From positions 1-35,530 of the IMG/VR virus record IMGVR_UViG_3300000385_000014: a stretch of DNA of 35,530 bases; one strand, given 5' to 3'. Below the pieces are notes generated by a model. It saw only the letters and a list, made by a program, of their open reading frames with translations. It was not told the DNA's origin and ran no database searches. Numbering within the stretch: the first letter of the stretch is position 1; each line of letters begins with the position of its first letter. Of the stretch, positions 5,099 to 34,000 are shown piece by piece. The position numbers were made by a program, and so were the translations under genes. Source of the stretch: a virus.

Positions 5099-8000
5099 AT
5101 GAGTATCAATACAGATTTAAGCGTCGATCCATACTACGACGATTACGACGAAACCAAACAGTTTAATCGCATACTCTTTCGCCCAGCAAGAGCGGTTCAA
5201 GCGAGAGAGTTAACTCAATTACAAACGATTCTACAGAATCAGATTGAGCGATTTGGTTCAAACGTCTACAAAGAAGGCACCATCATTAATGGTGTCAACT
5301 TGACTTCTCGTAGTGATATTAATTACGTAAAGCTAAAAGATAGCTCAACGTTTACTGATCCGACGCTTTATGTGCCTAAAGCAGACGAAGACAACATTCG
5401 CTATGACCTTATAGGAACTAGCTCAGGACTGCGAGCAGAAATTCTATCTGCTACTCCTGGATTTGAGACTCAAAACCCAGATTTAAAAACGTTTTATATT
5501 AACTATCTGAACACTGGTACTGATGGTCAAAAATTCTTCACCGCAAACGAAATCTTGCGAATTGAAAAGATCACGGACATAATTGAAGAAGGCGTAGTAA
5601 TCAGAACTGAAGTAGAGACGCTTTCAGTTAACCCTGTTGTAGCAAACGTAGATGATCAAATCACAGGAAATTCATTTGGTATATCGTGTGAAGAAGGTGT
5701 CATTTATCAAAAAGGACATTTCATTTTTGTAGAGAACCAGTTTATTGTCGTTTCTAAGTATACGAATGCTCCTAGTGATATATCAGTAGGATTTATTATA
5801 GACGAGTTTTTAAGGAACTCTGACGAAGATTCCAGCCTTCTCGATAACGCTTCGGGATTCAATAATGAAAACGCTCCTGGCGCAGACAGACTTCAATTAG
5901 TGCCTCGATTGGCTGCGTTTGAAACTGGAAGCGAACCGGAAGACTTTTTCACGCTGATTAGATTCGTAGACGGTGAGATATTCAGACTTAGAGATTTGAC
6001 TGAATTTAACGTCATCGGAACGGAAATGGCGAGAAGGACTTACGAAGAGTCTGGAAACTATGTTGTTGAAGGTCTTGGTACTAGACTTGAAGATACAGGT
6101 AGCGGGGTTAATGTTATTGTTGATCCTGGTAAAGCATACGTCTTTGGAAGAGAAGTCCGCAACATATCAGCAAAACGACTGGCCATAGATCCAGAAACTG
6201 CGGTTCAACTGAAACAAGATCAAGTCGTTGGAGTAACTCACGAAGCACATTTCTCTTTTTCAGCGACAGATGGTAGCACACTCGACGACTTCTTGACTGA
6301 CGGTACTCGCTATGCCATGTATAATGCATCCAGTGAAGTGATTGGATACTGCTCTATCTCTTCTTTTAATGCTGGTAAAATATACGCTTACGCTATTCGT
6401 AAAGTCGAAGGTAAAGAAGCTGACGCGGTTGCTAGAATATTTAACACTCCTATTACTAGCCCCTCTCTCGTATTCCCTAATGAAGCAGTGAGAATTTACA
6501 GCACAGGAAAATCCACTCTTAGTTCTATCACTAATACTAAATTCGTCACTAGAGTTAGAGAGAATGCGTCAGGAGGAGCGGTCGGTAATCCAATAACGAT
6601 TGAAGCTGATACTACAACAGGATCTTTCCCATTATCCAATAATATTATAGGTGTAAACTCTGCAAGTCAGATAAAAATACCGACTTCCGTCACGATTGGA
6701 GAAGCTGGCAATATTGAGATTACATTTAACGAAAATCTGGGAGTTGATGGTTGGATATACTACAACATACAGCGATCCGGATTAAATTCAGATAGCGTAA
6801 TCGACGCAGAAGGATATGTGGTATCGTCTTTAGAGTCTAATGTAGTCGAATTAGGCGTTCCAAATGTCGTGAAACTACTTGAAGTTGTAGATATCACTAA
6901 CGGAGAAGACTTAACAGCTAAGTTTAAGTTAGTTAACAATCAAAAAGATTCATATTACGATCTTTCATATCTGAAAGTAAAAGGCGGAGAAACTATAGAC
7001 GGAGTTCGTACTTCATTAAGAGTTAAATTCGTTTACTTCAAGAGAACAACAACAGGCGCTAACGGATATTTAACGATTGATAGTTATGCGAATGTCACTC
7101 GCAAAAATTTAATTCCTAGATATGAAGCAAGAGACAATATCATCTATGATCTCAGAAATTGCTTTGACTTTAGACCATATGCTACTCTTCCTATAGGAAG
7201 CGCTATAAGCCCGTCTTTAGGAGCGTCAAACCCACCTAGGGTAAACATGTCTGCCGATATAAGAATATCTAATTCTATATCTATCGTTCCGAACAGTCAA
7301 ATAATCTGCGATCAAAGCTATTATCTAGCAAGAATCGATAATGTTGTTGTCGATGAGTTTGGTGATTTTCAGTTATTTAAAGGAAGTGCTTCAGATAATC
7401 CCTCTGTTCCAGAACTGAAGCGACTGTATGCTTTATCCAAAGTATATGTTCCTGGCAATCTTTTGTCAACATCTGGAACGAATCCAGTTAAGATCACCGA
7501 TCTTTCAAATAAAAACTATACGATGAAGGATATTGGCAACATTGAAAAGAGAATAGATAGATTAAATGAGGCTGTTTCTCTTAGCTTACTCGAAACACAA
7601 GCGAAAGACTTCTTTGTTGATGATGGTACTGGTAGCAATCGCTTTAAAACTGGTATTCTCGTTGATGCTTGCCGAGATCTCACGATCGCTAGTGTTTTAG
7701 ATCCGGAGTTCAATGCATCTGTCGATAAAACTAGAACTGTCATAACTCCTTCTGTATTCCAATTTCCCATTGACATGAAAGTTTCGACTGAAAACGGAGG
7801 TCTGAACTTTACTCAATATGAAGATATCATTACGATAGGAAACACGGGAACAAACTCGACTGTTTTACAGCAAGAGTTTGCTACACAACAAAGAAATTGC
7901 GTTACTAACTATTACAACTATGCGGGTAGGGCTGACATATTTCCAGCGTTTGATGTGGGGTATGACAACATTACAAATCCAGCTGTTAATGTTGAAGTTG

Positions 8001-25207: not shown

Positions 25208-26481
25208 TGGCTAGAGGATTCGTAATAGACTTAAATCTGTCCGAGATGGACAGCAGAAACAAAGACTCTCTCGCGCTTAATAACTTAGGAGGAGCGGGAA
25301 CTTCAAGCGCTTTGTCGTTGCTCATAAACAATACCAGCAACGAAAGCGTCATGAAAAATAGCAGAAGCTATAATATCACAAATATTGAAAGGACCGGAAA
25401 TCAGCTATTCTTTAGATTTGGAGTTCCCATAGATTTTAGAGTTGGGAATTTAATCAATATCACTGGCGTAACTCCAGCTGAATATAATTTAGTTGACGCT
25501 AGGGTCTCTGTAATTGGAACAGACTTCTTTGTGGTTGATGTTACGAGCGAAGACGTCTTTCCAGCATACGTCAGCGGAGGTGTTGCCGAAGGTTCAGATT
25601 TTATTACGGAAACTATCTTCAAAACAGTAGTGGGACAGGGGACATTTCCTACAACACTATTCTCAAGAAGAAATGACGAACAAGTCGTCTTTTCTAACAA
25701 CACTAGAGTTACAGTTACAACAACAGATTCTGAAAGTCAATATGTAGTTATAGATTCTGATGGAGTAGATAGCTTTCAATTATCAATCGAGACACCCTTT
25801 GGATTATATAATACTGTTAACTTTCCTAACCCAAGTGATATTATCTCTATAACAAGAAAAGACGAGGTTACTTTAGAAAATATTTCTAATCTAAATCCAT
25901 TTAGGTTATCAACTATAGCAAATAATCGTAACCAAGGTCCGTCTGGCGGCGGAGGTGAATTTGGCGATGGTGGGGTATTAGGAGTATCAGGAATTGATGC
26001 CGGAGATTTGATTCCTATTACAGATAGATCTACGTTACAAGAGATATTTTCAGGAATTAGTAATAATATAGACTTGTATAGTTTTAGAAGAAGGCGTTCA
26101 GTGGTCGTCGACGAAGACGCGTTCTACGACTTACCTATAACCTTTGATGGTGCCCTGGCTATAACTAATACGAGTGAAATCGATATAACTACAGAGGGCT
26201 CTCCTGGTATTTTTATATACAACGGCAGCGATTCTGTTAGAGCATTCTCAGATAATAGTAACCCATGGAGCGATACTGTCGTGGGTAGCGGTTACACAAC
26301 AACTCAATCTACAGTAGCAACAGTTAGGACACTTCAGGCAACAAGACCTAACTTTGAGGACTTAAACGTAGTTGTAGAAAGTGGAGATGCGTTAAACGAG
26401 TATACACACAAAATACCAATTCGCGTGGAAGACGGCACTGGTGAGAGGACATATTTCTTGCTAGCCAAATTAGTCAATTAG
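25207..26481 (+). CDS. Phage structural protein with Gly-rich hinge
   Basis: A 424-residue protein. The N-terminus (VIDLNLSEMDSRNKDSLALN, then NLGGAG) has the conserved Leu/Asn-rich docking pattern of marine myovirus tail proteins. Residues about 70-110 hold a small beta module (RVGNLINITGVTPAEYNLV) like those that sense boundary segments in other virion proteins. A glycine hinge (GPSGGGGEFGDGGVLGVSG, about residues 242-260) separates it from a C-terminal domain with SRRRRS-like basic residues (FRRRRSVVVDED) and a final strand RTYFLLAKLVN. No enzyme signature was recognised. The end overlaps the opposite-strand gene by 12 bases, so the two transcripts converge. The function beyond virion structure is unknown. 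Confidence 0.6.
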   Translation: MARGFVIDLNLSEMDSRNKDSLALNNLGGAGTSSALSLLINNTSNESVMKNSRSYNITNIERTGNQLFFRFGVPIDFRVGNLINITGVTPAEYNLVDARVSVIGTDFFVVDVTSEDVFPAYVSGGVAEGSDFITETIFKTVVGQGTFPTTLFSRRNDEQVVFSNNTRVTVTTTDSESQYVVIDSDGVDSFQLSIETPFGLYNTVNFPNPSDIISITRKDEVTLENISNLNPFRLSTIANNRNQGPSGGGGEFGDGGVLGVSGIDAGDLIPITDRSTLQEIFSGISNNIDLYSFRRRRSVVVDEDAFYDLPITFDGALAITNTSEIDITTEGSPGIFIYNGSDSVRAFSDNSNPWSDTVVGSGYTTTQSTVATVRTLQATRPNFEDLNVVVESGDALNEYTHKIPIRVEDGTGERTYFLLAKLVN

Positions 26482-26488
26482 TAATTTG
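26466..26488. repeat. Inverted repeat across the convergent stop codons
   Basis: CAAATTA and TAATTTG form a perfect 7-base inverted repeat with a 9-base loop, centred on the tail-to-tail overlap of the two convergent genes. It could form a hairpin in either transcript. The stem has only one G:C pair per arm and no T-run follows on either strand, so it is a poor intrinsic terminator. It may be chance or a weak processing or pausing site. Confidence 0.35.
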
Positions 26489-28773
26489 TAAGTCTTTCCA
26501 CCAGAAGTCACGCTAAGAGTTTCGGTATAGTTATTTCCAGCTCCTAGTTGAACAGCTTCTCCTGCGTTTAAATCGACTTTCAATTCTTTTATAGACAGAG
26601 TATTAGCGTCTATTCCCGCGTTTCCTGTAGCTGTATTAGTTTCCAATCCTGTGGCTGTACCGACAAAAGGAGGAGCTGTATCTAATGCAACTACACATAT
26701 CTCTCTGTTTGTGTTATCGGGAGAAATCGTGACAGTAGAGCCGAGAGGTATTATAGCAAGAATATTGTTTGTTAGCGTTATAGTATTGCCAGAAATAGAA
26801 GATACTGTAGTTCCTGAGGGTATAGGTCCAGCAAATTGCACATATGAACCAATTGCTATATTATTAACATCATCTAACGTGATTTGATTTTGCCCATTCG
26901 CGGCGTCTACGCTCACTCGCTTACCGAAAACGCCTTGACAAAAAACGTCTTTACTTCTATCTTCTAGTCCTTTGTCTCGATAAATCGCTAATGTGCGTCC
27001 GGTATTTTGCGGAAATGGCGTTGATGATACTGCAGGTCCTTCATCATAAAGCGGAGAAAGTTCTATCGTAGCTACGCCAGAACCCAAACTTACTGACGCC
27101 ACTCTATATGTGGGCAAACTCGCGTCGTCTGCTATAACGATATGATTTACCTGAATATCTTCTACAGAACTCCCCTCTAACTTTGCGTTAACTACCGGAT
27201 TACTCGCAGAAAACCGCGTTATATCGTAAATTCCTACTATTCCTTTGTATCCAAAAAATACTCCGCCTTCAAGGTAGTTCTCTGCTACTCCTTCACCACG
27301 CATCGCAGCAGGCAGATCATCAACCCGTTCGAACCACGCTTCGAATAAATTAGCATTTAATACGTCAGAAATCTGAACGTACTCGTTGTTTCTTACAAAA
27401 TAATCTCCCCTTTCTAGCCCAGAGAATAAAGAAATGTCGTTAGCGTATTTTCCCTTTCCGGCATATCTCATGCCAGATCCTGATGTTGCTATGCCTTTGA
27501 ATCTATCGCTAGCAACAACTGGAGGATCATAGTCGATCAATATTGAGTTGTCTACAGTAAACGAGGCAGAACTCTCTCTGTTCCATGGGTCTAACTTTCT
27601 TTTGTAAAAATATTCTATCGATAAAGGATTAGGATCTGCTCTAAAAGCAGGGTTTTCAGTATAAAAAAAGTAATATGGAATATAAGTCGATACTGTACTA
27701 TAACTGATAGCGAAATATTTATTAGCGTAATCTATTATATTTGGGTCGGCAGGCTCTGGCCACCAAAGCGTCATTCTGATGTGCAGTTTATCAGAGTAAA
27801 AACTATCAGCCACTCTATATCGAGTTACCAAAGAACTCTCGTCAGATCCTATAGTGTTTTGTAATCTAAGCGTGATGTTTGAGCTTAAAATTCCGCTTGC
27901 ATCTCTACTGAGTAGAATTGTACCATATGTTGCGCTCACTTCATCGATTACAAGAGGTTCTCCATCGACAGGAACGCCGTTTATGTGCGTTATAGTATCT
28001 CTAGAAGATATGGAAGACAAGTCGTTTGTGTCAGTAAACGTTACTGATAGTCCGTCAGTTGTTATAGATATATCTCCAATGGAGACTTCTCGTATTTCAT
28101 CATAGATTGACGTTAGCATCGTCCAGTTATTGTCGTCATTATAATCAATTTCAATTAGAAATAGCCCCGTCCCAATAGCGGCGTATAAATGGCTGTTAGT
28201 TCTAGCAGAAAGAGCCATATACCCTTCCCACTGCACCAGACCAAATGAATCCTGAAACGTATCAAATATTTTATCGTTAAATTGGAATATGCCCTGATCC
28301 CAGAAATTAAATTCTTCAGTGGCAGCGAGAGGCTGAGATATTAGATAATCTCCTGTCAATTGAGTAGCGGAATCGCCTCTTGCTTTTATTTCAGCTTGAG
28401 ATCTAACAGCGAAAGAAGGATAAAACTTGGCGTTTATGCCGTCTCCGCCTCTCAAAAATGGAGGATCTCCTGTGAAAACTTTAGCGTTTTCGACATTATC
28501 TTTAAGGGTAACAAATGGTGTAATGGGTCTAACGGCTCGATTAATATCCGTATATTCGGTAGTCTGTCCGATCAGTTCTTCTAGATTTTCTGTCGTAACT
28601 CTTTCGTTACGCAGTCCCTCAATTGCTTTGAGATCATCTGGCGTGAAACTTTCTTCATCGGAAGGAACTAAATCGTTGAGTAGATTTTTTAAAGACTCAT
28701 AAGGATCATCAACGTCAGATAAATTTCTATCACGTCTCAGTCCAATACTACTATATTTTGGTCTTAAAGCCAT
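26470..28773 (-). CDS. Reverse-strand phage structural protein
   Basis: A 767-residue protein and the only gene on the minus strand. Its N-terminus (ALRPKYSSIGLRRDRNLSDV, then DDPYESLKNLLNDLV, then FTPDDLKAIEGLRNERVT) is of the type that opens many tail proteins of marine T4-like phages. A segment around residues 108-250 (GGDGINAKFYPSF, FWDQGIFQF, LVQWEGYMALSARTNSHLYA, IGTGLFLIEIDYNDDNNWT) loosely resembles a PA14-like carbohydrate-binding beta barrel; this is tentative. Later parts are beta-rich (NTITLTNNILAIIPLGSTVT), and the C-terminus ends YTETLSVTSGGKTYKLLID, similar to the end of the convergent neighbour. Start chosen: ATG at 28773, with a GAGGG site ten bases upstream (28784-28788 on this strand). 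A late promoter on this strand lies at 28802-28809. Its long coding frame and family-type N-terminus show it is a real gene rather than a shadow. Confidence 0.78.
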   Translation of the reverse strand: MALRPKYSSIGLRRDRNLSDVDDPYESLKNLLNDLVPSDEESFTPDDLKAIEGLRNERVTTENLEELIGQTTEYTDINRAVRPITPFVTLKDNVENAKVFTGDPPFLRGGDGINAKFYPSFAVRSQAEIKARGDSATQLTGDYLISQPLAATEEFNFWDQGIFQFNDKIFDTFQDSFGLVQWEGYMALSARTNSHLYAAIGTGLFLIEIDYNDDNNWTMLTSIYDEIREVSIGDISITTDGLSVTFTDTNDLSSISSRDTITHINGVPVDGEPLVIDEVSATYGTILLSRDASGILSSNITLRLQNTIGSDESSLVTRYRVADSFYSDKLHIRMTLWWPEPADPNIIDYANKYFAISYSTVSTYIPYYFFYTENPAFRADPNPLSIEYFYKRKLDPWNRESSASFTVDNSILIDYDPPVVASDRFKGIATSGSGMRYAGKGKYANDISLFSGLERGDYFVRNNEYVQISDVLNANLFEAWFERVDDLPAAMRGEGVAENYLEGGVFFGYKGIVGIYDITRFSASNPVVNAKLEGSSVEDIQVNHIVIADDASLPTYRVASVSLGSGVATIELSPLYDEGPAVSSTPFPQNTGRTLAIYRDKGLEDRSKDVFCQGVFGKRVSVDAANGQNQITLDDVNNIAIGSYVQFAGPIPSGTTVSSISGNTITLTNNILAIIPLGSTVTISPDNTNREICVVALDTAPPFVGTATGLETNTATGNAGIDANTLSIKELKVDLNAGEAVQLGAGNNYTETLSVTSGGKTYKLLID

Positions 28774-28801: not shown

Positions 28802-28809
28802 TATTTATA
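28802..28809 (-). promoter_or_regulatory. T4-type late promoter, minus-strand copy
   Basis: Read on the minus strand this is TATAAATA, the exact -10 element of T4 late promoters recognised by the phage gp55 sigma factor. Its downstream end lies 28 bases before the ATG of the reverse gene at 28773, leaving room for a start about six bases later and the GAGGG ribosome site. It shares two bases with the plus-strand copy. Confidence 0.75.
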
Positions 28810-28815
28810 TAAATA
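28808..28815 (+). promoter_or_regulatory. T4-type late promoter, plus-strand copy
   Basis: TATAAATA on the plus strand, a perfect match to the T4 late consensus. Transcription should begin about 28821, giving a leader of roughly 28 bases with a GGAG ribosome site at 28839-28842, six bases before the ATG at 28849. With the minus copy it makes the 14-base palindrome TATTTATATAAATA (28802-28815) in the only divergent gene junction of the window. Confidence 0.8.
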
Positions 28816-28848
28816 ATTGCATAACTATAACTATATTTGGAGATTCGA

Positions 28849-29181: not shown

Positions 29182-29394
29182 ATGAACATCAAGGCTAAGT
29201 TAACACCACAAAAAAATATCCAAGTAACAAGAGTCGCCCAAACACAATCTCAAACTATAAGTATATATAATATAGAAGAAATGAATCTGCAAGACTTGAG
29301 TGATGGTGACGTTCTTGTTTGGGACGATACTAACGAATATTTTAATGCACAAAAATTGCTAGATAAACAAGAACTCAATGGAGGGGAATACTAA
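29182..29394 (+). CDS. Small hypothetical phage protein
   Basis: A 70-residue protein, polar, with no membrane segment. The N-terminal part is beta-like and rich in Gln and Thr (TPQKNIQVTRVAQTQSQTIS). The C-terminal part, LQDLSDGDVLVWDDTNEYFN, resembles the short 'DGDVLVWD...' segment that recurs in phage fibre proteins. It begins immediately after the stop of the previous gene with a GAGG site and ends with a TAATG overlap onto the fibre gene, so it is co-translated between two virion proteins. I do not recognise a named family. A fibre-accessory or connector role is a guess from position. Confidence 0.6.
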   Translation: MNIKAKLTPQKNIQVTRVAQTQSQTISIYNIEEMNLQDLSDGDVLVWDDTNEYFNAQKLLDKQELNGGEY

Positions 29395-30896
29395 TGGCTT
29401 CACTCATTAGAATAAGAAGATCTGGTGCGAATGGTGCGCCATCAGCACTAGCGCAAGGTGAAATCGCATACTCGTACTTAGGAGGAGATCTAAGTAACGG
29501 CGGCGATCGTCTTTATATTGGTACTGGCGCAGAAACCAACGGAGAAGCTGCATCGATTGATGTTATCGGTGGTAAGTATTTTACCGATATGCTCGATCAT
29601 ACGAAAGGCGTTCTTACTGCAAGCAGCGCTATAGTAGTTGACAGTAACTCAAAAATCGATCAATTACTTATCGATAATCTACAACTCGATGGTAATACGC
29701 TTTCAATAACAGAAGCAAACGGCAATCTTATACTGGCGCCAAATGGCACTGGTCATATTGACGCTTCTACCAGCCTGATTAAAAATGTAGTCGATCCGGT
29801 TGATAATCAAGATGCGGCTACTAAAAATTATGTAGAAACTCGAATTTCAGACGTACAGTCTGGGCAGATAGAGAGTTTACCTCTATTAATATCTGACGCA
29901 GAAACCACTCCTGGTACCGATACTATCAACATCGGTGGACCTGGAGCCGAGACGTTAGTATTCGAGGGTCAAAATGGCGTAACAACAACAGTAGCAGACG
30001 GAACTAGTACTGTTGTAATTGGTCTTACTGTTGATCTAAGCCCAACAGCTGACGTAGAATTCGGCACAGTAACTACAGGATCTCTTTTAACAGACGTCAT
30101 TGACTCAGAAATTGTTCAGACTGTTACTGGAACAGACTTTGAATTTAGCGCAGTAGCAGGAACAATCACGTCAACAGCACAAGATCTAAGCGTATTCACG
30201 GTAGGCGACACGATTACCATATCAGGAGCTTCTGGCGCTAACAATAATGTTTCTGGAGTAATCTCTGCGGTTACGGCAGATACTATTACTTTGGTAAACG
30301 GAACTGAACTACTTACTACAGTAAATGATACCGGAACAACAATAACCCTGACGTCAGCGCTCGATTATCTTGACATTCGTCACGAGCGCGTTAAATTCAA
30401 GACGCTAGCAAATCAAGCTGGTAGAGTTGTTGTTACTGCAGCCGACGGTCAAATTGTCACTGACGCGCAGCTTACATACGATACCGCTAATGACGTTTTA
30501 TCGGTTGGGACATTAACGGTTGATGGCGACGCTTCTGCTCCCGTTATAACAACAACAGCAGGAAATCTTGAATTATCTTCTGCTGGCGGCACTGTTACAA
30601 TTAGTGGTGATTTAACTGTTACGGGCAATACTACTACATTGTCGACTCAAGATCTTCTTGTAGAAGATAACGTTGTTGTTCTTAATTCTAGCCTAACAAC
30701 AGGCGACAACGCCGCTGCTACTCCTGCGGTAAGCGGTATTAGTGTAACACTTTCTTCTGATGCAGCTGAATTGAATTACGCAAACATTCTTTGGGATAAT
30801 GCAGCACAGACGTTTAAGTTCGCTACAGCAGGGACAGAAACTGGAACTACAAATGTTGCTACAATAGAAGCTGTTATTGATGGTGGTACTTACTAA
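29394..30896 (+). CDS. Tail fibre-like structural protein
   Basis: A 500-residue protein. Its N-terminus (ASLIRIRRSGANGAPSALAQ, then GEIAYSYLGG, then DRLYIGTGAE) is the hallmark opening of abundant fibre-like virion proteins in marine T4-like phages. Then follow KIDQLLIDNLQLDGNTLSIT, LAPNGTGHIDAS and VDPVDNQDAATKNYVETRI, a fibre junction motif. The C-terminal half has TGNT-type beta repeats (GTVTISGDLTVTGNTTTLST) and VEDNVVVLNSSLTTGD. A segment near residues 260-315 (FTVGDTITISGASGANNNVS, then TADTITLVNGTELL) looks like an inserted small beta module. A strong GGAGGGG site precedes the ATG. The gene ends a transcription unit: hairpins follow the stop. Confidence 0.8.
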   Translation: MASLIRIRRSGANGAPSALAQGEIAYSYLGGDLSNGGDRLYIGTGAETNGEAASIDVIGGKYFTDMLDHTKGVLTASSAIVVDSNSKIDQLLIDNLQLDGNTLSITEANGNLILAPNGTGHIDASTSLIKNVVDPVDNQDAATKNYVETRISDVQSGQIESLPLLISDAETTPGTDTINIGGPGAETLVFEGQNGVTTTVADGTSTVVIGLTVDLSPTADVEFGTVTTGSLLTDVIDSEIVQTVTGTDFEFSAVAGTITSTAQDLSVFTVGDTITISGASGANNNVSGVISAVTADTITLVNGTELLTTVNDTGTTITLTSALDYLDIRHERVKFKTLANQAGRVVVTAADGQIVTDAQLTYDTANDVLSVGTLTVDGDASAPVITTTAGNLELSSAGGTVTISGDLTVTGNTTTLSTQDLLVEDNVVVLNSSLTTGDNAAATPAVSGISVTLSSDAAELNYANILWDNAAQTFKFATAGTETGTTNVATIEAVIDGGTY

Positions 30897-30938: not shown

Positions 30939-30984
30939 AATGCGTCGATAATGTTTATATAAACTAGACGCATTTTATCTTTTT
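30939..30984 (+). terminator. Probable intrinsic terminator
   Basis: An 8-base perfect stem AATGCGTC (30939-30946) / GACGCATT (30967-30974) encloses a second 12-base palindrome, GTTTATATAAAC (30953-30964). It is followed by a T-rich tail (TTTTATCTTTTT, 30973-30984). It lies 42 bases after the fibre stop codon. The inner palindrome shares the 10-base core TTTATATAAA with the double late promoter at 28802-28815, so it may also work as a weak promoter for the next gene (TATAAACT instead of TATAAATA). Confidence 0.65.
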
Positions 30985-30997: not shown

Positions 30998-31019
30998 ATT
31001 ATACCTTGTGTGAGGATAT

Positions 31020-34000
31020 ATGTCAACCATTAAATTAAAAAGAAGTGCTGTACCTGGAAAATCACCGACTGTAGAAAATCTAGAGACTGGTGAGCTAGCG
31101 ATAAACACCTATGATGGTAAACTTTTTACTAAGCGAGAGCAATCGTTTTTTGATGATGCCCTCCAAGAAAACGTTTCTCTTGAAGAAATTGTTGAGTTTT
31201 CGTCTAAGATACCTGTTGAAAACACTATCTATGTACAGAAAGCAGGAAATGACCGTAATAGCGGGGAAAGCTGGGACGGAGCATACCTGACGATAGAAAA
31301 GGCTGTTGAAGCCGCAGCTGCAAGAAACCAACTAACGCTGATCAAAGTTGGTCCTGGCGAGTATACGACTCGCGGTCACATCGACGTTCCAGATAATACC
31401 GTTATTCAAGGCGTACACCGAGCGGTATTCATTCGACCAGAGCCTGGATACGAAGAAAGAAACGTATTTCGTATTGGATCGGGCTGTTTCGTTGAAGGCT
31501 TCGTATTTGAGAACTTTCGTCTAGATAATCTCGATAATCCTAGCGAAGGATTTGCTATTTGTTTTCGTCCTGGTGCTCGCATTACGCGAGTACCTTATGC
31601 GCATAAAATTGCTGTTCGTACCCCTCCCTATTGGACAACAATTGCGCCGCCTTTAGATAGAGACAACGCAAATCCACTTGTTGGACGAGGAGCAGGCGTA
31701 GTTCTTGCTGACGCAGCTGTTCTTGATCCAGACTCAGTATTCCCTAACATCATGGCATGGGGTGCTACGCCTGTTACGCACAACGGTATAGGCTATTGCG
31801 CAAAGAATGGTGGTTTGATCAACGCGATTAACGCGATTAGTATCTGGTGCCACAAACACTTCCTTGCGATTGATGGTGGATCGATCGTCCTTTCAGCGTG
31901 TTCTACTCAGTTTGGAGACTACACACTTGTCTCTCAAGGAACAAGAGATCTTATCATTCCCACTGAAGTTGACGTTCCCTTAACCATTAATACAGCTGCT
32001 TCTACAGCGATTACTGATAACGCAACTACTATAGCGACGAATGTTGTATCTGCGCTTGAAACAAATGGCTTCACAACTAACTGGCCAAGTGACGGATCTT
32101 ATCAAGCATTAACGCAACGCGATACTGGACTGCTCACCCAAGCGCTTGGATGGGTTCTGGAGACAGGCGATGAAAAGCCAATGCTTGATTATGCCAAGGG
32201 ATTCTTTACTGTCACAGGCGAGCGAGCGTTTAAATCACTTGACTATAACTATGACAAGTGTTACAGAGATACTCAGCTGATCACAGAAGCGGTAGCTTAC
32301 GATATAGCATTCGGATCAAACTACCGAAGCATTAATGCTGCGCTTTCTTACTATCGAGCAAATGCTAGTGAAGTTGTCACGACTCAACTGTCAAATACGC
32401 TTGCTGGTATCACAAAGCAAAAAGAAATTATTGCTGACTACTTAACGGGCACTTCACTTACTCGATCTAACGCTCTGTTTGACGAGATTCTGGACATCGT
32501 AGAAAACGGAACAGGAGCAGCTGACGCATATGTTTATCCTGATCCTACTGCTTATGATGCTGGATTCAGAGAAGGTCGTCGCCTAGTTCTCGCAAACAAA
32601 ACGTTTATTCAAGATGAAATTGATGCGTGGATTGCAGACCAAATTGCTACAGAGACTGCTCCTTTCACAGCTGGATTCACTTACGATGCTGCGGCTTGTA
32701 GAAAAGACGTTGGTCTTATTATAGACGCTCTGATATACGACTTAACGTATGGAGGCAATTTAGAGACGTATAACGCCGCTGTAGCGTATTTTGTGGGCGC
32801 TACGTCACAACTAGGCGCTGGTGAAAAAGACGCTACAATCGCTGCCTACGGACGCCTCAAAGCTATTCTAGGAGATATTCCACAAGCAATACCAATAACT
32901 AAATCTTCAGGAAATACAGCGACTCAAGACGTATCTTCTCCTCCAGGTAGTGCAGATTCTGCAACGTTTGCGCAAGATCGAATTCAAGAAATTGTCGATA
33001 CAATTCAAAGCGATGGCACTCCTCCGACTAAGATTCAGCCTAGTCTGACTTGGCCAGCTGACGAATTCACTATTTCGTATAACGAACTTATCACAAACAC
33101 CGCCGATATCGCAGACGGAGTTTTAGATTATCTCAGTACGATTGAGACAGGCTATAACTTTGATAAGTGCTATCGTGATGTTAAACTGATTAATGAGGCT
33201 ATCGCATACGACACGCTCTTTAATTCTAATGTTAGAAGTATTAACGCAGCACTAGCCTACTATAGAGCAAATGCAAGCAAAGTTCTAACTGAACAGAAAG
33301 CAGTAACTATACAAGCTATTGAGCGCCAGCGCCAATATGTAGAGGCTTTACCTACTCCGGCTTCAGATTCGTTTAATCGTATTAGCGCACTCTTTGATGA
33401 AATTTTAGATATACTAAACAACGGCGAAGCAGCTGCTGACGCTTATCTTCTATCAGACCCAACTGGATACGATGACGGGTTATTCCACGCTCGTCGGTTA
33501 ATTACTGCGAACAAGACGTTTATTCAGGACGAGATTGATGCTTGGATTGAAGATCAAATCGCAGGAAATATTGCTCCGTTTGTTGGCTTTACTTATACTG
33601 GAGATAGAGCGACTAAGTGTAGAAGAGATATCGGTATTATTATTGAGGCGCTTCGTTACGATTTGACATACGGTGGTAATCTAGAGACTTATAATGCTGC
33701 TATAGCATACTTTGTTGGAACGACTGCTCAATATGGCGTTGGCGAGAAGCTGCCCACACTAGCTGCTCTAGCGCACTTGAAGTCTGTAGTTTCAGATGTT
33801 ATAGCTAGGACGGCAATAACTCCTTCGACAAATAACGTTACTCCGCAGGACACGTCCGGAGTCGCTGGAGGAGATGCTGCGGCAATCGCGTTCGCAGAAG
33901 CAAGAATAGAAAGTATCAGAACTACAATCACAGAAAATGGCGAAGCGCCATCCAAGATTCTACCTGATACGACTTGGCCTCTACAAGAGTTTCAAGATAC

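Follow-up and report, generated by a model that had tools for sequence, protein, structure and literature searches.

The late promoters of phage T4 are built on an octamer numbered −13 to −6 (PMC1524935), and the polarity of their activation is set by the nicked strand via gp45 (PMC2988020). In the cyanophages S-PM2 and Syn9, the late motif NATAAATA has been reported as single sites (PMC2984593), and late-promoter prediction in pelagimyophages was reported to be unsuccessful (PMC7029224). Bacterial bidirectional promoters, described by Warman, Grainger and colleagues, are defined by starts lying 7–25 bp apart (PMC10268837). A symmetric element of two such octamers is found once in T4, where the 12-bp palindrome TATTTATAAATA has its single genome copy between the divergent late genes 26 and 51. 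Our literature search, which was thin on subscription journals, returned no publication that treats this palindrome as a class, and T4's two sites are probably already contained in published promoter lists.

Here we analyze a 14-bp palindrome, TATTTATATAAATA, at positions 28802–28815 of a 35,530-base stretch of DNA, which is referred to in its entirety as the window. The window is a T4-like fragment, a 35.5-kb virus record that encodes gp6- and gp8-type wedge proteins and fibre proteins. We estimate a probability of about 0.86 that the palindrome is a bidirectional gp55-type late promoter, in which two octamers share their TATA/TA end. Observed are the sequence itself, its location, the conservation of both orientations, and the presence of gp55 in the sister genome G002; from these we infer transcription in both directions, mutual exclusion, and the start positions.

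A check of the window sequence shows that the palindrome is its own reverse complement. The octamer TATAAATA occurs exactly twice in the window, once per strand and both times within the palindrome (plus strand, 28808–28815; minus strand, 28802–28809), and an exact search of the whole window returned no further copy. The two octamers overlap by two bases at their TATA/TA ends; they can sit back to back and share bases because their first bases, TATA, are self-complementary. The surrounding gap between the divergent genes is 75 bp long and AT-rich, and constitutes the sole minus-to-plus switch among the long ORFs of the window. Within it, the palindrome lies 28 nt from the minus start codon (28773), which belongs to a structural-looking gene, and 33 nt from the plus start codon (28849) of a tail fibre assembly gene, distances that match those of other late octamers in T4-like genomes. 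The initial annotation had described both the self-complementary element with an octamer in each direction and its position in the only divergent junction, and both descriptions hold. By its symmetry, with one octamer per strand, the sequence corresponds to the symmetric −10 element of a bidirectional promoter, and a promoter scan of the window returned no sigma-70-type site of at least 9/12 with its −10 inside the palindrome, as suits a T4-type late promoter, for which a −35 element is dispensable. T4 numbering would place the RNA starts at 28821 (plus) and 28796 (minus), 25 bp apart, with predicted leaders of 28 nt on the plus side and 23 nt on the minus side; for the 12-bp form, the same numbering predicts divergent starts 23 bp apart.

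The minus-strand gene (26470–28773) encodes P0001, a beta-rich protein of 767 residues from an unnamed family. P0001 has no match in Pfam, PHROGs, PDB sequences or isolate phages, and neither a distant homologue of P0001 nor the window DNA matched any isolate phage, so that the comparison rests on IMG/VR. A single-sequence scan of IMG/VR also returned nothing, and a family alignment was needed to recover 59 related loci, all on uncultured virus contigs. The ends of the family are conserved, with the motifs K-Y-x-x-F/I-G-L-R-A/R-D and NTAPPFxGT. The predicted model is beta-rich and of moderate confidence (mean pLDDT 67.9), and P0001 is structural-looking; in fold searches its matches, phage tail-tip proteins and other beta-rich ones, all had low TM-scores, and because these matches are weak we claim no function.

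The plus-strand operon begins with P0002 (28849–29181), a member of the L-shaped tail fibre assembly family (phrog_3304/phrog_1084), followed by a small gene (29182–29394, phrog_13853) and a gene for a 500-residue protein (29394–30896, phrog_15769). It probably ends at a terminator-like plus-strand hairpin at 30940–30984 (ATGCGTC...GACGCAT, with GTTTATATAAAC inside and TTTTATCTTTTT after it). This hairpin was read by eye and was omitted by the terminator scan, which allows loops of 3–8, since its loop is long. On the minus strand, at 30998–31026, lies a sigma-70 promoter with a 12/12 match (TTGACA-17-TATAAT), whose −35 overlaps the start codon of a fibre gene at 31020; RNA from it would run antisense through the fibre-assembly operon toward P0001. 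The site is conserved at 11–12/12 at the homologous MSTIKLKRS gene start in L002, L015, L020, L023, L276, L280, L281, L282 and L285, and most relatives with the site carry a GCTATATAGC-type palindrome at the expected RNA start.

The junction was compared in a first set of 44 loci of the plus-strand gene and, after two family alignments, in 103 non-redundant loci. At most of the 44, a (T/C)ATAAATA octamer lies ~25–35 nt upstream of the start, and TATTTATAAATA, a 12-bp palindrome whose two octamers share four bases, is present at every locus with a divergent neighbor. In the set of 103, a palindrome occurs at 28 of 30 divergent loci (TATTTATAAATA at 26 and TATTTATATAAATA at 2, the 14-bp form being held by the window and L280) and at 1 of 72 co-directional loci, with one further locus unclear. 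The corresponding Fisher p of ~1e-21 is overstated because the loci share ancestry, most of the divergent ones descending from one ancestral junction and not being independent. Co-directional relatives keep the forward octamer and lose the symmetry. The element is fixed while the flanks and the proteins diverge: in an alignment of 17 junctions with identities below 80%, the central 12 columns carry 1.65 bits per column versus 0.65 for the flanks, and the relatives of P0001 in the family alignment are only 24–32% identical to the window protein. In the records of nine relatives the 12-mer occurs exactly once each, always upstream of the fibre-assembly gene, and the reversed control motif has zero occurrences. 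P0001 relatives with a different divergent partner (NIGRIA; proteins beginning MAVELVNIGRIA) also keep both orientations, as a spaced inverted pair with gaps of 3–6 bp, as in TATTTATC-6 bp-GATAAATA or its variant with a 3-bp spacer. Octamer overlap among the relatives is thus 4 bp (in most), 2 bp, or none. An extended one-directional consensus, with TATT preceding TATAAATA, was rejected, as co-directional relatives do not have the TATT.

The two divergent loci without the reverse element are L336 and L403, whose minus-side neighbors are one FabF-like ORF and one 90-codon ORF, perhaps spurious. The minus-strand ORF of L336, of 373 residues, starts 86 bp to the left of the fibre-assembly gene in a divergent arrangement that has no reverse late octamer; we take it to be a beta-ketoacyl synthase-like (FabF-type) gene on a T4-like contig. 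The single co-directional locus with a palindrome is L016, a locus that looks like a relict, the divergent gene having been lost up to the palindrome's left edge. There the palindrome directly adjoins unrelated DNA (7774–7963) that includes a long inverted repeat, GATACTAAGAT...ATCTTAGTATC, as if an exchange had happened at this point, and no tRNA accounts for the region to the left of the palindrome.

The same octamer, gp55 and related palindromes are found in other T4-like phages. We counted 32 copies of TATAAATA in the T4 genome, equal to the number of perfect-consensus late-promoter sites in a review of T4 (PMC2988020), and in the 80 bp preceding genes the octamer is strand-biased (copies on the gene's own versus the opposite strand: 21/7 in T4, 14/4 in G002, 25/4 in G004). 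A gp55 homologue was found in nine T4-like genomes, including G002 (83143–83703), and not in the window, a 35-kb genome fragment. Like T4 26/51, two further palindromes are cases independent of the window junction. The pelagiphage Mosig has one TATTTATATAAATA, at 60971, between genes 60954(−) and 60990(+). S-CAM7 has one 12-mer, at 37297, which precedes a tail collar fibre gene on the minus strand by 21 nt; the neighboring plus-strand gene is 238 nt away. At the 26/51 junction of RB49 the exact T4 palindrome is not retained, and a genome search of S-PM2 and Syn9 returned no 12-bp palindromic pair. A second compact layout at short divergent junctions has octamers face to face, with offsets of −14 to −24 in gaps of 47–70 bp: in T4 at 77349/77364 (4/53) and 112021/112035 (inh/segE), in RB49 at 64544 and 101242, in Mosig at 101419, and in G007 at 45324. 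RNAs from the closest of these pairs would have overlapping 5′ ends. A pure packing rule, by which gap length fixes the offset, was discarded: gaps of ~70 bp give +4 in G002 and −19 in RB49.

The promoter reading of the initial annotation is supported by these comparisons. It agrees with the strand bias of the octamer and with the gp55 of G002; nearly every relative that has this divergent pair retains late elements in both directions; and retention of a single orientation among relatives, the outcome it had named as speaking against its reading, was looked for and not found. Its statement that T4 late promoters are normally one-directional is contradicted by the 26/51 palindrome and by the interleaved 4/53 promoters of T4 itself. 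Since T4 has the same type of palindrome, the device in the window is not exceptional. The points that count against the promoter reading are the window itself, a fragment in which no gp55 was found and no TATAAATA elsewhere could corroborate the consensus for its own genome, the common ancestry of most divergent loci, the missing reverse element in L336 and L403, the palindrome without a divergent gene in L016, and the loss in RB49.

As a bidirectional late promoter, the palindrome could work as follows. Late in the infection cycle, TATAAATA would be recognized in either orientation by the RNA polymerase of the host, equipped with gp55 as phage sigma factor and assisted by gp33 and the sliding clamp gp45, one polymerase at a time on the 14-bp site. 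Leftward RNA would start at ~28796 and run into the P0001 gene, and rightward RNA would start at ~28821 and run into the tail-fibre-assembly operon, placing both under common late control from a 75-bp gap. RNA polymerase has a footprint that far exceeds 25 bp, so only a single orientation would be occupied at once. Given that the promoter is symmetric and that gp45 activation takes its polarity from the nicked strand, the clamp orientation left by replication could choose the direction of transcription. We consider this last idea quite unlikely; if true, P0001 and the fibre-assembly operon would be transcribed in turn, according to which way the replication fork passes.

The alternative that survives best, although we regard it as unlikely, is the competitive switch proposed in the initial annotation, here taken to mean that the overlap itself is under selection and that exclusion between two polymerases determines how strongly P0001 is expressed relative to the fibre-assembly operon. 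The octamers do overlap at 28 of 28 palindrome-bearing divergent loci, leaving no room for two polymerases, but the overlap varies from 4 bp to 2 bp to none in relatives with the NIGRIA partner, and divergent late junctions of T4-like phages also have face-to-face octamers. The bidirectional promoters of E. coli compete once one direction is activated, but only when that activation is strong, and no competition is seen at basal activity (PMC12825309); here neither a regulator nor unequal strength is known. Because both directions are conserved but the overlap is variable, selection, as judged from the alignments, seems to act on the presence of both directions.

A one-directional late promoter in an accidental palindrome is in our view very unlikely. 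P0001 would then be transcribed from another site, such as the minus-strand sigma-70 promoter at 31026–30998. That promoter is a perfect consensus aimed at P0001, albeit 2.2 kb off, and L016 has the palindrome in the absence of a divergent gene. However, the palindrome is missing from 71 of 72 co-directional loci and present at all divergent loci but two, the reverse octamer is conserved where the flanks are not, and a search for the sigma-70 site came up empty in several palindrome-bearing relatives (some with short flanks).

Less probable still is an operator bound by a dimeric regulator instead of a promoter. AT-rich palindromes of 12–14 bp are common operators and the dyad symmetry is perfect, but each half is an exact T4 late octamer, co-directional relatives lose the symmetry and keep the octamer, the half-to-half spacing varies by 2 to 10 bp, unlike in a rigid dimer site, and the same sequence is found in other T4-like phages beside unrelated genes.

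The weakest explanation, a chance AT-rich sequence, draws on the bare 14-mer, which across IMG/VR at large lies at divergent junctions in 24/120 cases versus 23/120 for a reversed control, but it is next to negligible given an element conserved in relatives and present in a single copy per genome at the junction. In view of this equal share, the 14-mer by itself does not count as evidence of function and was dropped as such; conservation among relatives, as seen in the aligned sequences, does. Of the 35 distinct palindrome cases in the T4-like set, 29 lie at divergent junctions and 3 more at sequence edges, as classified by one greedy ORF caller that filed L392 and S-CAM7 as co-directional, although L392 on closer look and S-CAM7 in its deposited annotation are divergent; the reversed control motifs occur once altogether. 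Within the window, TATAAATA alone is not enriched (2 observed versus 3.8 expected), and the probability that a palindrome like the one here, 12 or 14 bp long, arises in the 75-bp gap is ~0.0007 under an order-1 model of the gap.

The window palindrome is real and conserved, but the same arrangement is present in many marine relatives and in T4. T4-like phages thus appear to have repeatedly fitted two late operons into one short gap by means of a shared symmetric octamer. Together with T4 26/51, these loci form a natural, conserved set of perfectly symmetric late promoters that can be used without engineering, and that allows tests of how direction is chosen, of polymerase exclusion and of the polarity that gp45 gives to activation. 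In uncultured T4-like phages, the palindrome would also flag an unnamed structural-type family and the point where a late operon starts.

Among known systems, the cyanophage motif NATAAATA (PMC2984593) resembles the window element in its octamer core and its position before late genes. Bacterial bidirectional promoters (PMC10268837, PMC12825309) likewise have a symmetric −10 serving both strands, with a single polymerase per element at once, and the predicted 25 bp between starts in the window compares with their defining 7–25 bp. They differ in using sigma-70 and TATAAT, whereas the window would use gp55, a fixed octamer and clamp activation; in the window, moreover, the palindrome is conserved and without mismatch, and a protein gene lies on each side as the product. 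T4 4/53 (77337–77385) also has two late promoters in a short divergent gap, only one of which would be occupied at once, but its octamers face each other with an offset of −15 and overlapping transcripts are expected, whereas those of the window stand back to back. The closest counterpart is T4 26/51 (NC_000866, 116428–116479), which, like the window, has a single-copy palindrome of back-to-back TATAAATA octamers; in T4, the divergent late genes on its two sides encode baseplate proteins and are separated by 50 bp. The T4 junction differs in its overlap of 4 bases (2 in the window), in an additional minus-strand GATAAATA, in octamer-to-start leaders of 17 and 21 nt, and in genes unrelated to those of the window.
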